Shown here in pieces: positions 4,195 through 23,245 of a DNA stretch of 26,176 nt. A program made the translations under genes and the position numbers. Every line of letters begins with the position of its first letter. The first letter of the stretch is position 1. Origin of the DNA: a virus; the IMG/VR virus record IMGVR_UViG_3300043436_000462, positions 1 through 26,176 of that record; one strand, written 5' to 3'. The notes beneath the pieces are model-generated. The model worked only from the letters and a program-made list of their open reading frames with translations. It was not told where the DNA came from and did not search any database.

Positions 4195-4770
4195 TTAATT
4201 ATCTACGATTGTAGCACCGTTGAAAATAACAGTAGCCATATCGCTTTCGCTATTTGTGTTTAAGAAGTTAGCAGGTACGTTTTCCATTCCTGTAAACGTT
4301 AAGTTGTACCCGTTGAAATCACCCATTGCCGTACCGCTTGAAATAGTACCAGCAGTTACATCGCAACCTCTTTGCAATCCTGCAATAAAGAATTGATTTT
4401 CGCGTGTTTTAACTACAATGTGAGGACGTCCGTAAGCTAATAACTTAACTGTTTTGTGTGTCGCAACGTCTTGTTTTTTCAATTGCACAGTCAATACTTG
4501 CTCAAAGAAAGTTGTTCCGTTGTCGCGGCTCGTTTGAATAGTTTGCTCAAATGAGTTAGCTCCTTTCAATTCAAATTTGTAAAGCGAAGAAACACTTGCA
4601 ATGTCTGAAATAGTGTCTTCATATCCAGCAGCAACTGAATACAAAACGTCGCCACCTGCTAAAGTTGAATCAGGATTAAAGTCTCCAAAATTAATAAAGT
4701 AGATTGCATCCAAACCCGATACTCCAGATTTACACGCTTCCAATCTGCCTTGTGCTATATCACAGCTCAT
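4195..4770 (-). CDS. Putative major tail (tube) protein
   Basis: A 191-residue protein starting MSCDIAQGRLEACKSGVSGLDAIYFINFG, an N-terminus I associate with a structural protein of Bacteroidetes prophages. The rest is beta-rich with a central region FELKGANSFEQTIQTSRDNG and a C-terminal segment (YNLTFTGMENVPANFL) resembling tail tube subunits, where an Ig-like or tube fold ends in a Gly/Asn-rich loop. The gene is framed by terminators on both sides (4797-4826 upstream, 4145-4169 downstream), as expected for a highly expressed virion protein. Tail tube is the best guess; a head decoration or stopper protein is the alternative. Confidence 0.6.
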   Translation of the reverse strand: MSCDIAQGRLEACKSGVSGLDAIYFINFGDFNPDSTLAGGDVLYSVAAGYEDTISDIASVSSLYKFELKGANSFEQTIQTSRDNGTTFFEQVLTVQLKKQDVATHKTVKLLAYGRPHIVVKTRENQFFIAGLQRGCDVTAGTISSGTAMGDFNGYNLTFTGMENVPANFLNTNSESDMATVIFNGATIVDN

Positions 4771-4795
4771 GTCTTTTTATTTTTTAATGTTTAAC

Positions 4796-4826
4796 AAAAA
4801 AGGGTGGCGTTTATTTCACCACCCTT
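4796..4826 (-). terminator. Intrinsic terminator after the major capsid gene
   Basis: On the minus strand AAGGGTGG and CCACCCTT form a perfect 8-base-pair stem with an 11-base loop, followed by a T run. It begins about 20 bases after the capsid stop codon and could limit read-through from the capsid gene. Confidence 0.85.
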
Positions 4827-4845
4827 ATAATAGTTTGAAATTAGA

Positions 4846-5802
4846 TTAGTTAGCAGAATTTGTAATACCGTAAGTAACTACATCCGAAGCAAAACCGTAT
4901 TTAGCATCAGCTGAAAAACGCATGATAACTCTTACGTTTTGTGAACCGTCGATATCACCCATATCCAAAACTTTAACTTCTTGTTGGTCGCTCATCAAAC
5001 CAGTCGCAAAGAACAAGTTTGACGTTTGAGCTAACAACGCAGTGTTTGAAGCAAGACCTGGAGCTAAGAAAATTTTAACACCATCAAAGTAAAGATCTCC
5101 TAAAACTTGGTTTGTTCCTTTGTTGTCATAACCATTAGCACCCACACCAGAAGCAGCAAATCCACCCAATGCACGAACGTAAGCTCTATAAATGTTGTTA
5201 GAAACATAAAGTTTCAAATCTTCTTTTCCGTAAAGAGCAGCAGGTAAAGCGTCAACGATAAGACCCAATTGAGCAATAACGTTTGAAGCATTTACACCAC
5301 CACCAACTGCAGCAATTTCTTGTGCGGAAGGTAAAGAAGCGTCAGCTGCTAATTGTCTCATGATTCCAGCGAATTCACCAGCAGAAGCATTGTTACCGTC
5401 CCAAATAGTTAACTCTAATTGTTGAGCAACTTTCTCAGCAGCGTGTGCAATTAAGAAATCAGAAAAAGATTTAGGTAATACATCAAATGCAGAATAACCC
5501 ATTTGAATAGCATCCCAATCTGAACGAAAATCAGACTTACAAAGTTGTAAATTCACTTGAAAAAACTCAGGTTGAAGCACTCGCTCAGTCAAAGTAATTG
5601 TTGAAGTAGGGTCAAAATCACATGAAGCGTTTTTAACGATACCGTCAGTTGCAACTCTTTTAATAACTTGTTTGTACTTAACGTTAGGCATGATAGTGAT
5701 TCCGCCTTTTTCTAATGTTGGCGCAGACAATAAAGCTGCTGCAATGTACTTACCTGCAAATTCACCTGCGTAGGTAGTACTGATACTTGTTGTTGTTGGC
5801 AT
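4846..5802 (-). CDS. Major capsid protein
   Basis: A 318-residue protein with the composition and layout of an HK97-fold capsid subunit: an N-terminal arm (MPTTTSISTTYAGEFAGKYI), a helical spine around FSDFLIAHAAEKVAQQLELTIWDG, Ala/Gly-rich linkers, and a beta-rich C-terminus with a repeated M/V-rich strand (NVRVIMRFSADAKYGF). It follows an acidic scaffold-like gene and a protease three genes back, the normal head-gene setting. The leader ATTTTAAAATAAAATAAAATG has no Shine-Dalgarno site but is A-rich, as in strongly expressed Flavobacteria genes. A strong hairpin terminator follows. Its codons look more regular and its GC content higher than its neighbours, as expected for a highly expressed gene. 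Confidence 0.82.
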   Translation of the reverse strand: MPTTTSISTTYAGEFAGKYIAAALLSAPTLEKGGITIMPNVKYKQVIKRVATDGIVKNASCDFDPTSTITLTERVLQPEFFQVNLQLCKSDFRSDWDAIQMGYSAFDVLPKSFSDFLIAHAAEKVAQQLELTIWDGNNASAGEFAGIMRQLAADASLPSAQEIAAVGGGVNASNVIAQLGLIVDALPAALYGKEDLKLYVSNNIYRAYVRALGGFAASGVGANGYDNKGTNQVLGDLYFDGVKIFLAPGLASNTALLAQTSNLFFATGLMSDQQEVKVLDMGDIDGSQNVRVIMRFSADAKYGFASDVVTYGITNSAN

Positions 5803-19578: not shown

Positions 19579-19675
19579 ATATAAATCTCGATAGTCCAAT
19601 AAAAGATAAAAATGCCAATGATACCGCTTTTTTTATAAGCAATACCAAAGGCAAATTCATCCGTTTTTCTAACCC

Positions 19676-20032
19676 TCACGACACTAAATTATATAAATTT
19701 CTTTTATAGTTCAACAATCGACCCAAAGCCATTGAACAAATATCTAATTTATAAACGTATTTTTCCGACAATTCATGCAATAATCCTTTCTTGCATTTCA
19801 TAACCATATCCGAATAAAGTCTCATTCTAACCTGCATACCCTCAATCATGTCATCAATGTTGCTGATTCGTTCTTCAACTAACTCTTTACATAATTCGTA
19901 ACCTTTACCGTTGCAGGACATACAAGTATAATACACTTCTTTTTGTTCGTAAGGAATATGCGTATCGTTTAATTCAACAATAATACATCCGTCTCCCTCA
20001 CATTCGTGGCAATCAATACATAAACTTTTCAT
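19676..20032 (-). CDS. DnaJ-like zinc-binding protein
   Basis: 118 residues. The first ~50 contain the repeat pattern of the DnaJ Cys-rich domain: CIDCHECEGDGC (residues 5-16) and CMSCNGKGYELC (about 37-48). Together these give CxxC pairs that can bind one or two zinc ions. The rest is helical (ISNIDDMIEGMQVRMRLYSD) with a basic C-terminus. There is no J domain, so it is not a Hsp40 co-chaperone; similar short proteins may act as RNA or DNA regulators in phages. It is the first gene after the promoter at 20056-20086 and precedes the sigma factor by about 100 bases. Confidence 0.6.
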   Translation of the reverse strand: MKSLCIDCHECEGDGCIIVELNDTHIPYEQKEVYYTCMSCNGKGYELCKELVEERISNIDDMIEGMQVRMRLYSDMVMKCKKGLLHELSEKYVYKLDICSMALGRLLNYKRNLYNLVS

Positions 20033-20055
20033 AATTTCTAATTTTAATTGTTAGA

Positions 20056-20086
20056 CAAATATACTAATTAATATAATACAAACAAA
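20056..20086 (-). promoter_or_regulatory. Bacteroidetes-type promoter (TTTG-N19-TATATTTG)
   Basis: On the minus strand TTTG (20086-20083) and TATATTTG (20063-20056) are separated by 19 bases, matching the Bacteroidetes -33/-7 consensus TTTG...TANNTTTG. The start of the 118-residue gene lies 24 bases beyond. The block TTAGTATATTTGT is repeated upstream of the ERF gene at 22839-22851. Confidence 0.65.
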
Positions 20087-20113
20087 AAAAAAGCGGAATT
20101 TTTTACGTTCCGC
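20084..20113 (-). terminator. Intrinsic terminator of the early operon
   Basis: On the minus strand GCGGAA and TTCCGC form a 6-base-pair stem with a 9-base loop, followed by nine T. It ends the recombination/lipoprotein operon. Its T run touches the -33 element of the next promoter. Confidence 0.8.
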
Positions 20114-20189
20114 CTTCCGACCGTGTTACCACAATCCAAAAATGATTCAGTAAGTGTTCTAATGGTAACTATCTGAATACGTTATTTAA

Positions 20190-20288
20190 TTAATCACGTT
20201 TAAATAAGTTAATAACTAATTTAATTGCTAAGGCTATAATTACAATTGCAATGGCAAAACCGATTGAAACTATTATAAAATACTTCAT
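20190..20288 (-). CDS. Small membrane peptide (32 aa)
   Basis: A 32-residue peptide, almost entirely one transmembrane segment (YFIIVSIGFAIAIVIIALAI, from residue 3) followed by a basic end, KLVINLFKRD. Its ATG overlaps the stop of the lipoprotein gene (TAATG), so translation is probably coupled. It precedes the operon terminator. The likely topology is N-out with a positive cytoplasmic C-terminus. It may act with the SPFH-tail lipoprotein; function unknown. Confidence 0.6.
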   Translation of the reverse strand: MKYFIIVSIGFAIAIVIIALAIKLVINLFKRD

Positions 20289-20710
20289 TACTTAATACTT
20301 ATAATTGATTGAGAACCTGAACCAACTGACGTAGTAGGAAGTTTTCCATTCCATTTTTCAATTTTAAAATATTCAATAATATTTGCGGTAATTGATTGAT
20401 TTAATAATCTGTTAGCTTCTGCTTCCGCAGTTGCATTAATTATTTTTGCTTTTGCGTCTGCCTCTGCTTTTATTAGTTTTTCTTTCGCATACGCTTCTGC
20501 TTTTGTAATCTTTGTTTGAGCATCTAATTTAGCTGATTCATTATCTGCTTTTGCTTGTTCAATTTTTACCTTTTTAGTTGATTCAGCTTTTAAAAGTTCT
20601 CCTTTACCTTCTGACTCTCGGTCTAATCTATCTTGTTCTCTTTCATATCCACGACAAGAATCTAATGATAATGCAATTAATACGCTTACTAAAATTGTTG
20701 CTTTTTTCAT
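20288..20710 (-). CDS. Lipoprotein with SPFH/prohibitin-like C-terminal tail
   Basis: 140 residues. The N-terminus MKKATILVSVLIALSLDSC is a lipoprotein signal with lipobox LDSC and Cys19 as the lipid anchor. Residues 36-105 form an Ala/Lys/Glu coiled coil (TKITKAEAYAKEKLIKAEAD). The C-terminus IIEYFKIEKWNGKLPTTSV (about 111-129) matches the conserved end of SPFH proteins (stomatin/prohibitin/HflC type), where a helix is followed by KIEKWNGxLP. The SPFH domain itself is missing, so this looks like the oligomerising tail of a prohibitin on a new membrane anchor. The leader is AAATAAAATAAAATAAAAATG. A role in superinfection exclusion or membrane modification is speculation. Confidence 0.65.
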   Translation of the reverse strand: MKKATILVSVLIALSLDSCRGYEREQDRLDRESEGKGELLKAESTKKVKIEQAKADNESAKLDAQTKITKAEAYAKEKLIKAEADAKAKIINATAEAEANRLLNQSITANIIEYFKIEKWNGKLPTTSVGSGSQSIISIK

Positions 20711-20726
20711 TTTTATTTTATTTTAT

Positions 20727-20930
20727 TTATTTACTAAAGAACTCACCCAGCTTTTCAATTGACTTGCTGGATAAAGTGTTTCCGCTCATAAATTTATGAA
20801 GGTTAGGTTGTCTTATATCTACAATCTTAGAAAAAGCATTAAGGCTTAATTCGTGTTTTTGTAGGTAGTGTCTAATCATTAACCTTGTTAATTCATTTGC
20901 TTCGCTTAAAACCTTTGCTTGTTGTTTCAT
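20727..20930 (-). CDS. Cro/CI-type helix-turn-helix regulator
   Basis: A 67-residue protein with a Cro/CI-like HTH: LIRHYLQKHE-type first helix (about 17-27), LSLNAFSKIVDIRQPNLHKF (about 28-47) as the helix-turn-helix, and LSSKSIEKLGEFF as the closing helix. It is coupled to the preceding gene by an ATGA overlap. It would be a small DNA-binding regulator of the early operon. No partner repressor in the opposite orientation is visible, and its operator is not identified. Confidence 0.75.
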   Translation of the reverse strand: MKQQAKVLSEANELTRLMIRHYLQKHELSLNAFSKIVDIRQPNLHKFMSGNTLSSKSIEKLGEFFSK

Positions 20931-21175
20931 ATACCATTTAAAAAGTCATCAAACTCTTTATTGCCATAACTTGGTTTACCGCCTATTGGCTTCGCTTGTT
21001 CTTTAACTGGTTTAAAACTTAAGCTCAAAAACTTTCCTTTTGCTCCGTCTTTTACCCAACTTGAAACATAATATTCTACGCCTCCGATTGTAGCTTTACC
21101 TTGATAGTGCGGGTGCGTTTCCTTTTCTCTTTTGTCGTTAGTGAATAACGCTCCACTGTTGTCTTTCTTTTCCAT
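20927..21175 (-). CDS. DUF736-like small protein (82 aa)
   Basis: 82 residues with GALFTNDKREKETHPHYQGK at residues 8-27, then YYVSSWVKDGAKGKFLSLSF (about 35-54). A strand-rich core with alternating charged residues and the pattern LFxNDKxxxxxHPxYxGK resembles DUF736-like proteins, common in phage recombination and replication cassettes; some may bind ssDNA. It ends with an acidic tail, EFDDFLNGI, of the type that docks partners in SSB-like proteins. Neighbouring ERF and exonuclease genes support a role in recombination, but that is inferred. Confidence 0.6.
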   Translation of the reverse strand: MEKKDNSGALFTNDKREKETHPHYQGKATIGGVEYYVSSWVKDGAKGKFLSLSFKPVKEQAKPIGGKPSYGNKEFDDFLNGI

Positions 21176-21185
21176 TTTTACTTGT

Positions 21186-21428
21186 TTATATTTGATTATT
21201 ATTTACAAACCATTTAGAAACCTCGTTTATTGATTCAAAATTGATTACCTCGAATTTATTTGATTCAAAGTTGAAGTTTACTAAACTCAATGTTTTTATT
21301 GCTTTTTCAAAGTTGCATATCTTACAAACCTTAACAACCCCCAAATCTGATTTTAATTGATATTTTCTGTTTGACTTGTTGAACTCAGATAAAGGCAGGT
21401 TTCTTTTACAATTAAAACATTCTTTCAT
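21186..21428 (-). CDS. Zinc-ribbon-type protein (80 aa)
   Basis: 80 residues with two Cys pairs, CFNC (4-7) and CKIC (about 35-38), spaced as in a zinc ribbon, plus a basic linker, KSNRKYQLKSDLGVVK. The start MKECFNCKRNLPLSEF resembles HNH-associated or small zinc-ribbon phage proteins. No nuclease His/Asn box is seen, so nucleic-acid binding is more likely than cutting. It sits in the recombination cassette. Confidence 0.6.
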   Translation of the reverse strand: MKECFNCKRNLPLSEFNKSNRKYQLKSDLGVVKVCKICNFEKAIKTLSLVNFNFESNKFEVINFESINEVSKWFVNNNQI

Positions 21429-22811: not shown

Positions 22812-22839
22812 AAAATATAAATTAATTGTTTAACGTGTA

Positions 22840-22847
22840 CAAATATA
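22840..22847 (-). promoter_or_regulatory. Likely -7 promoter element of the recombination operon
   Basis: TATATTTG on the minus strand, inside TTAGTATATTTGT, 28 bases before the ERF start at 22811. The same 13-base block is in the promoter at 20056-20086. No clean TTTG is seen 19 bases further upstream, so the -33 part is weak or absent. Confidence 0.5.
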
Positions 22848-22885
22848 CTAAAAAGAATAATATAAAAGCGAAAAAAGAAAAATAT

Positions 22886-23245
22886 TTATAAAAATTTCTT
22901 CAATCCTTCTGCGCATCGTTGAATTGAATTAGCGCGTTCCTGTAACGACTTTATTTGCTCTGCTATAGTTTCAGTACAATCGCTTGTAAAATAGCCGTGT
23001 GACGTAGCTATTAACGGAATAATGCCGTTTGTACGAATGTAGTTTACCATTTTACGCAATCTCGGTTGTGTCATCCGTGTTTTAAAACCCTTGCCTACTA
23101 AATACTCATTTAATCGGGTAACGATTAATTCAGCTTTTATCGGGCTTTCTTTTTTATAATTACGAAATCCGTGAACTACTATTGGAAGTATCTCCATTTC
23201 TTCGCTTGTAAGTTCGCTTGTGTGTTCTTCAAAGTTGGTTATCAT
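22886..23245 (-). CDS. Hypothetical replication-region protein, winged-helix-like (119 aa)
   Basis: 119 residues starting MITNFEEHTSELTSEEMEIL. The layout is a helix, a strand-turn IVTRLNEYLVGKGF, a helix MTQPRLRKMVNYIRTN and a beta hairpin IPLIATSHGYFTS. This suggests a winged-helix DNA-binding fold with a C-terminal helix (AEQIKSLQERANSIQRCAEG). Proteins with this arrangement are familiar to me from Bacteroidetes phages near helicase and recombination genes, without a known role. It follows the 129-residue gene after only four bases. Confidence 0.55.
   Translation of the reverse strand: MITNFEEHTSELTSEEMEILPIVVHGFRNYKKESPIKAELIVTRLNEYLVGKGFKTRMTQPRLRKMVNYIRTNGIIPLIATSHGYFTSDCTETIAEQIKSLQERANSIQRCAEGLKKFL

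Follow-up and report, generated by a model that had tools for sequence, protein, structure and literature searches.

The virus record analyzed in this study (26,176 bases, hereafter the window) encodes an accessory two-gene cassette that pairs a headless SPFH-like lipoprotein with a membrane micropeptide. The predicted lipoprotein is derived from SPFH proteins but is not itself an SPFH protein, the defining domain being absent. Pairing across relatives, selection on the small gene and joint gain or loss all support the proposal, made in a preliminary description of this DNA, that an SPFH-tail-only lipoprotein is coupled to a single-helix membrane peptide, and both genes form a real unit as far as sequence can tell. 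The coordinates and lengths, the LDSC lipobox, the Ala/Glu/Lys helix and the KIEKWNGKLP motif given at that time are all borne out. The features are listed in Table 1.

Table 1. Features of the cassette in the window (approximate limits are indicated).
Feature	Position	Strand	Basis or characteristics
Lipoprotein gene, 140 aa	20288..20710	-	Signal peptide, lipobox, coiled coil and SPFH-type end, without SPFH domain
Predicted signal peptide, residues 1-18	20657..20710	-	Sequence; xxSC before Y/W/R in 29/29 distinct lipobox-clade proteins listed
Predicted lipobox cysteine, residue 19 (Cys19, L-D-S-C)	20654..20656	-	Sequence; invariant in 22-row alignment
Wall helix (CC1-like), ~residues 24-92	20435..20641	-	11-residue periodicity; limits approximate
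Bend helix (CC2-like), ~residues 93-115	20366..20434	-	Alignment to full-length phage SPFH proteins; limits approximate
Prohibitin-type cap, residues 116-140	20291..20365	-	KIEKWNGKLP at 116-125; four full-length phage SPFH proteins give scores of 93-114
Micropeptide gene, 32 aa, one membrane helix	20190..20288	-	1-base overlap with lipoprotein stop
Cassette, 546 bases: two genes and 25 flanking bases	20181..20726	.	Relatives L100 and L103 have 1 base there

The pair is encoded on the minus strand and flanked by a small HTH-like gene (20727-20930), which gave only weak matches in Pfam and PHROGs, and a Cys-rich gene (19676-20032), and is surrounded by replication and recombination genes. Base 20288 is common to the stop codon of the lipoprotein gene (20288-20290) and the ATG of the micropeptide gene (20286-20288), confirming that a 32-aa single-helix gene overlaps the end of the lipoprotein gene. 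Promoter, terminator and Rfam scans of positions 19600-21200 returned nothing usable. A hairpin with a T-run (GCGGAA...TTCCGC; 20091-20116, minus strand), unreported by the terminator scan, was spotted by eye downstream of the pair and is kept with small changes in 16 aligned relatives.

The LDSC motif of the lipoprotein is followed by a long Ala/Glu/Lys helix, and the protein ends with KIEKWNGKLPTTSVGSGSQSIISIK. The N-terminal membrane anchor that is typical of the SPFH superfamily is thus present as a predicted lipobox and not as a transmembrane (TM) helix. Within the helix, a lag of 11 residues gives both the highest mean self-identity (0.26) and the highest hydropathy autocorrelation (0.34, against 0.33 at lag 9). 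The same spacing recurs in how far the CC2 tyrosine lies from the GK motif, counted without three rows that have no anchor motif. This distance is 56 (n=3), 67 (n=22) or 76 (n=3) residues in distinct lipobox-type proteins, and 54 (n=6), 56 (n=39), 67 (n=1) or 78 (n=1) in TM-anchored proteins. The values 56, 67 and 78 are spaced by 11, while 54 and 76 are two short of the series, in the case of 76 because of a two-residue gap in the window type that is visible in the alignment. Steps of 11 residues correspond to three helical turns and would suit a packed wall. AlphaFold2 predicts a single helix (residues 2-120) with a disordered end for the window protein, and a helix (2-96), a break, a second helix (100-112) and a loose end for its sister L026. 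The latter model fits a CC1-CC2-cap layout without proving it; a Foldseek search with it against the PDB gave no match at E<=10.

The absence of an SPFH domain from the lipoprotein, as previously described, agrees with a search for PF01145 (Band_7/SPFH), which gave no match across the whole record and was positive in 14/14 control genomes. Pfam gave only sub-threshold hits for the lipoprotein, including FloA (0.028) and GH101_dom-5 (0.0096). Such hits show that composition noise is present, and since coils of such composition yield false hits, several checks were used. The last part of PHROG 200 (‘lipoprotein’, 379 positions) matches residues 41-134 with E=7e-15. PHROG 11227 (‘protease’, 138 positions) is matched by the window protein (E=3.9e-12) and by 12/12 other members tested, with values from 1.4e-22 to 1.8e-34 for the sisters; its best stretch in the window protein is limited to residues 6-77 because the cap differs. 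NCBIfam gave only matches below the cut-off for the lipoproteins, PADLOC gave no lipoprotein match, and no protease family in Pfam, PHROGs or NCBIfam matched the window protein.

Specificity was tested by searching 395 genomes, from the order to which the Tenacibaculum genome belongs, with a 22-member family profile (E<=1e-8). The profile matched 26 proteins, which on reading comprise the lipoprotein itself (1), TM-anchored tail-only proteins (6) and full-length stomatin/QmcA-like SPFH proteins (19), with no unrelated coiled coil among them. Among PDB sequences the best profile matches are Prohibitin-2 (1.3e-5) and QmcA (1.5e-4), with HflC at 0.49, and the alignments lie mostly in the coil. 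PHROGs, the 395-genome profile and the segment scores described below all point to an SPFH-related C-terminal coiled coil and cap, a kinship that exceeds chance resemblance.

The segment scores reveal a mosaic. Residues 20-66 of the window protein score 215, 205 and 181 against L010, L011 and L012, respectively; the scores are 90-145 with the remaining lipobox-type proteins and 26-66 with the tested SPFH proteins. For the end of the protein (residues 93-140), scores do not exceed 49 with ten host SPFH proteins and range from 20 to 53 with lipobox-type proteins except L010 and L011, compared with the values in Table 1 for full-length phage SPFH proteins. The lipoprotein is, by these alignments, a mosaic of a front half from a lipobox-type family and a cap from full-length phage prohibitins. 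The KWNGKLP end is found in only three of the 22 aligned members (window, L010 and L011) and is also encoded by the broken L012; the remaining members carry a stomatin-type (Y/F)(I/V)PTE...P(I/L) tail. The cap type is thus exchangeable. Lipoproteins of either cap type have a front half of one kind and go with micropeptides of one family, which makes the front half the most likely partner site of the micropeptide. Neither the exchangeable tail nor this link of the micropeptide with the front half appears in the preliminary description. In L012 (4935-5252, plus strand) the lipoprotein reading frame is broken and the micropeptide behind it is intact.

Pairing was assessed in 80 loci (the best 80 of 87) from a scan of viral contigs with a five-row family alignment; a further set of relatives consisted of the best 80 of 597. 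The 35 lipobox-clade and 60 TM-anchored hits represent 30 and 54 distinct DNA sequences, respectively. A micropeptide of the same family adjoins 26 of the 30 distinct lipobox-type genes among these best 80 of 87 loci. A strict script finds 24/30. Two more loci are counted because they are detected by the micropeptide profile: L023, where an alternative start lengthens the peptide to 51 aa, and L012, which has the peptide next to a broken lipoprotein frame. The same script finds a small TM open reading frame (ORF) beside only 3/280 other genes of at least 100 aa in the listed loci, and beside 1/54 TM-anchored homologues. Conversely, all micropeptide profile hits in the examined loci (30/30) adjoin a lipoprotein gene. 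The micropeptide follows the lipoprotein in 20 cases and precedes it in six; in a tree of 32 proteins, starred branches force two separate changes to explain the latter order, and gene order has thus changed at least twice. A lipoprotein without a micropeptide was found in L031 and L033, which encode the same protein, and in the whole records of the Chryseobacterium phages MA9V-1 and MA9V-2.

The micropeptide is under purifying selection, with a pooled pN/pS of 0.24 (pN 0.108, pS 0.453; 10 non-independent pairs). A mid-helix proline is present in 19/21 aligned micropeptides and absent from those of the window and L012, and in 18/21 the C-terminal ten residues are more positively charged than the N-terminal four. 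No convincing match was obtained in PHROGs (five micropeptides, best 0.0095) or NCBIfam (four micropeptides, best 0.094), nor for the window micropeptide in Pfam or PADLOC. In phage PJN03, a 33-aa micropeptide (L003:4406-4507, plus strand; ON245412.1, complement 22816-22917) lies directly behind the lipoprotein gene and is unannotated.

Comparison of the window genes with the best 80 relatives of the window terminase indicates that both genes come and go together. Neither gene was found by tblastn in any of the syntenic loci that span the region (0/38), and in 16 spanning loci with both neighbors well conserved the neighbor starts are 291-571 bases apart, compared with 898 in the window. L100 and L103 are identical to the window over 90/90 bases beyond the site, where they have one base against the 546 of the window; they are without exactly 545 bp containing both genes. 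These two contigs are 98.7% identical over 4.3 kb and count as a single observation of an empty site. The exact empty site and the absence in syntenic relatives show that both genes entered or left this place as one unit, and we regard the pair as an accessory cassette. Pairs with the other cap type occupy a corresponding place in L014 and L015 (SSB-like gene, HTH-like gene, pair, sigma-like gene), and in L010 the pair is placed before the SSB-like gene. It is true that Ala/Glu/Lys coils inflate scores and that several Pfam and NCBIfam hits are of this kind, but a chance coiled-coil likeness next to a spurious small ORF is contradicted at the sequence level by the specificity of the 395-genome profile, the mosaic, the selection, the controlled pairing and the exact empty site, and we consider such an artefact very improbable.

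The most likely reading of the cassette, which we put forward tentatively, is that of an accessory envelope module in which a headless periplasmic SPFH cap disturbs SPFH-FtsH quality control. The first gene product would be exported as a lipoprotein and kept in the envelope by its lipid, and the second would be a single membrane helix of ~32 residues that acts with the front half of the lipoprotein. Packed side by side, the lipoproteins could form a headless periplasmic cap or join a periplasm-facing host ring, and the micropeptide would reside in the inner membrane, probably in an N-out/C-in orientation. One step further, host SPFH-FtsH membrane quality control might be disturbed or mimicked during infection. 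In the solved PHB1/2 and Erlin1/2 cages, as described in PMC12624060, the wall consists of CC1 helices, after which come a bent CC2 layer and a ring of parallel beta-9 strands; PHB1/2 assembly is hit most severely by CC2 changes. The regions corresponding to CC1, CC2 and the cap are retained in the phage lipoprotein.

The lipobox would place the lipoprotein outside the cytoplasm. Predictions in PMC10434171 place HflK/HflC, which act on FtsH, in the periplasm and orient E. coli QmcA towards the cytoplasm; from these orientations and the predicted export, a periplasmic decoy could meet a ring of the HflKC or prohibitin type and not one of the QmcA type. A different account of whether HflK/C restrains or assists FtsH is given in PMC12048511. 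Against a host SPFH target speaks that the 19 full-length profile matches are QmcA-like, the type predicted to be cytoplasmic in E. coli.

The genomes of carrier bacteria bear on the same question. The genome scan found four bacterial records with a family member, namely Tenacibaculum caenipelagi, Sphingobacterium paludis, Riemerella anatipestifer and Aquimarina algiphila. All four belong to the Bacteroidota. Band_7 genes are present in all four carrier genomes, and those of Tenacibaculum and Aquimarina include prohibitin-sized ones. In Riemerella, with a 329-aa stomatin-like and a 670-aa flotillin-like gene, and in Sphingobacterium, with one 713-aa frame, none of the Band_7 hits is of HflC/prohibitin size; this disfavors HflKC/prohibitin as a general target. 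Only three Band_7 proteins of the carrier genomes, all of them prohibitin-sized and from Tenacibaculum or Aquimarina, match the family profile at E<=1 (L178, 2.7e-8; L182, 1.7e-5; L179, 4.1e-5). One of them, the 260-aa SPFH protein L182 of the Aquimarina genome (1318-2100, minus strand), has an apparent lipobox (FCNC) and may set a cellular precedent for SPFH proteins with a lipid anchor.

The idea that a phage SPFH protein acts on the host was thus only partly upheld: an accessory unit in phages would suit host interaction or exclusion, but a simple block of a host SPFH complex fits poorly with QmcA-like cellular matches and with two of four carrier genomes that have no HflC/prohibitin-sized Band_7 gene. 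The latter result also shifts weight from an action on SPFH-FtsH to an independent scaffold. According to this second explanation, the lipoproteins would build a headless cap or lattice of their own, with the micropeptide as anchor, that protects or organizes the envelope and has no host SPFH partner. The self-assembly parts are retained, the 11-residue length steps suit a packed wall, and the TM-anchored homologues are without the micropeptide (1/54 with any small TM ORF), as if it replaced a lost anchor. Exchange of two cap types that mirror cellular SPFH classes hints at partners, however, and we regard an independent scaffold as rather doubtful. A further formulation, which we likewise regard as rather doubtful, is that SPFH scaffolds can function without the SPFH domain: phages would have reduced them to a lipid-anchored wall-and-cap subunit with exchangeable caps, and together with an anchor-replacing micropeptide this subunit would rewire or imitate the FtsH-HflKC/prohibitin envelope complex of the host.

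Superinfection exclusion, in which the lipid-anchored coil and the membrane peptide would keep a second phage from adsorbing or from delivering its DNA and the SPFH-like tail would serve only for oligomerization, is likewise doubtful. The varying presence of the cassette between close relatives would suit such a role, three carriers are also IMG/VR records from bacterial genomes, and the tail-only gene of Salmonella phage SPN1S is inserted between terminase and head-tail genes but encoded on the other strand. The latter is a typical position of accessory genes. Cor-type phage lipoproteins are known to prevent superinfection (PMC4936722), but the match of this family is weak (one member, E=0.068, and none for the window protein). 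Moreover, no PADLOC match was obtained and the window pair lies amid replication and recombination genes. The SPN1S gene (L219:3630-3824, plus strand) is annotated as a 64-aa ‘protease’ (SPN1S_0003), seemingly from an internal start; its open frame, on the strand opposite to the terminase, extends upstream to a hydrophobic segment with a possible lipobox (AGC).

The spanin pair Rz/Rz1 consists of a lipoprotein and a TM protein that are encoded together, and the cassette could by analogy be a spanin-like or holin-regulating lysis pair of an outer-membrane lipoprotein and an inner-membrane peptide. Apart from this reminiscence, one TM-anchored member weakly matches an Rz-like spanin family (E=0.014). 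Unlike spanins, however, the micropeptide has no periplasmic coil and almost no periplasmic part, and the lipoprotein has an SPFH-type tail and TM-anchored homologues, which would fall short of the outer membrane. L028 and L024 carry an endolysin or amidase (4.3e-41 for PHROG 7 and 5.6e-45 for PHROG 822). Behind this lysis gene lies a distinct lipobox protein whose hydrophobic C-terminal segment gives it, by eye, the look of a one-gene spanin, but it belongs to PHROG 5885 with no known function. In addition, the pair lies near recombination genes (an ERF cluster in 11/33 loci). A role in lysis is therefore unlikely.

The tentative reading of an envelope module that disturbs SPFH-FtsH quality control can be compared with known systems. 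HflK/HflC, prohibitin and QmcA/stomatin rings share the CC1-CC2-cap layout, and the predicted export matches the HflK/HflC orientation, but the window protein is without SPFH domain and has a predicted lipid anchor instead of a TM anchor. MgtR, which acts with or on FtsH, is like the micropeptide a membrane-active peptide of ~30-50 residues, and a similar FtsH link of the micropeptide is conceivable. SpoVM and lambda CIII are further small membrane-active peptides of this size (~30-50 residues) that act with or on FtsH. Full-length phage SPFH/Band 7 lipoproteins (PHROG 200) have the same KW[ND]GKLP end and in some cases a lipobox (L007), but contain the SPFH domain, of which the window protein has only the part that follows. 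PHROG 11227 consists of tail-only SPFH-like proteins of ~130-150 aa that include members from phages S-PM2, AAM22, fEg-Aba01, Milano and PJN03; most members seen differ in having an N-terminal TM segment and no micropeptide. The sequences do not support the name ‘protease’, as no catalytic domain was seen, which suggests that the family is misnamed. 

Genome papers mention phage proteins with an SPFH domain for T4-like phages (PMC1524935), Bruynoghevirus relatives (PMC8540360) and a satellite phage (PMC4936722). For phage Sajous1, an ‘SPFH domain band 7 family lipoprotein’ is named, with three retrieved in the proteomic table, and SPFH is noted in Vi01-like phages (PMC10892097). The words phage and virus do not occur, by word search, in the 2009 study of prokaryotic SPFH evolution (PMC2636767), and we recognized no literature on tail-only SPFH proteins or the pair in the accessible open-licence part of PubMed Central.

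The cassette in Bacteroidota phages suggests imitation or disturbance of a conserved membrane scaffold. A natural wall-and-cap-only protein that has a partner peptide, whose caps are exchangeable and whose length varies mostly by 11 residues at a time, offers a small handle for telling the assembling part of an SPFH ring from the part that acts on other proteins. A conserved micropeptide is also added to the complete PJN03 genome, from whose annotation it is missing.

A split SPFH system, with a separate SPFH domain encoded in the carriers, was considered as a general rule and rejected, as it applies to 1/22 records only. In this record, an Aquimarina prophage that also carries the tail-only lipoprotein, a 180-aa protein consisting of the SPFH domain without coiled-coil tail (L218:1444-1986, plus strand; the same gene as L186) is encoded just before a small-terminase-like gene and has no evident export signal by eye. 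Near the prophage pair there are several tandem ORFs with similar C-terminal halves (GSRLCF motif) and an N-run between them (L029:5864-7515, plus strand). Another arrangement of an SPFH gene with a small TM protein was observed in viral contig L001, where a 51-aa single-helix ORF (4232-4387) overlaps the start of a full-length prohibitin-type SPFH gene (4374-5294, both plus strand).
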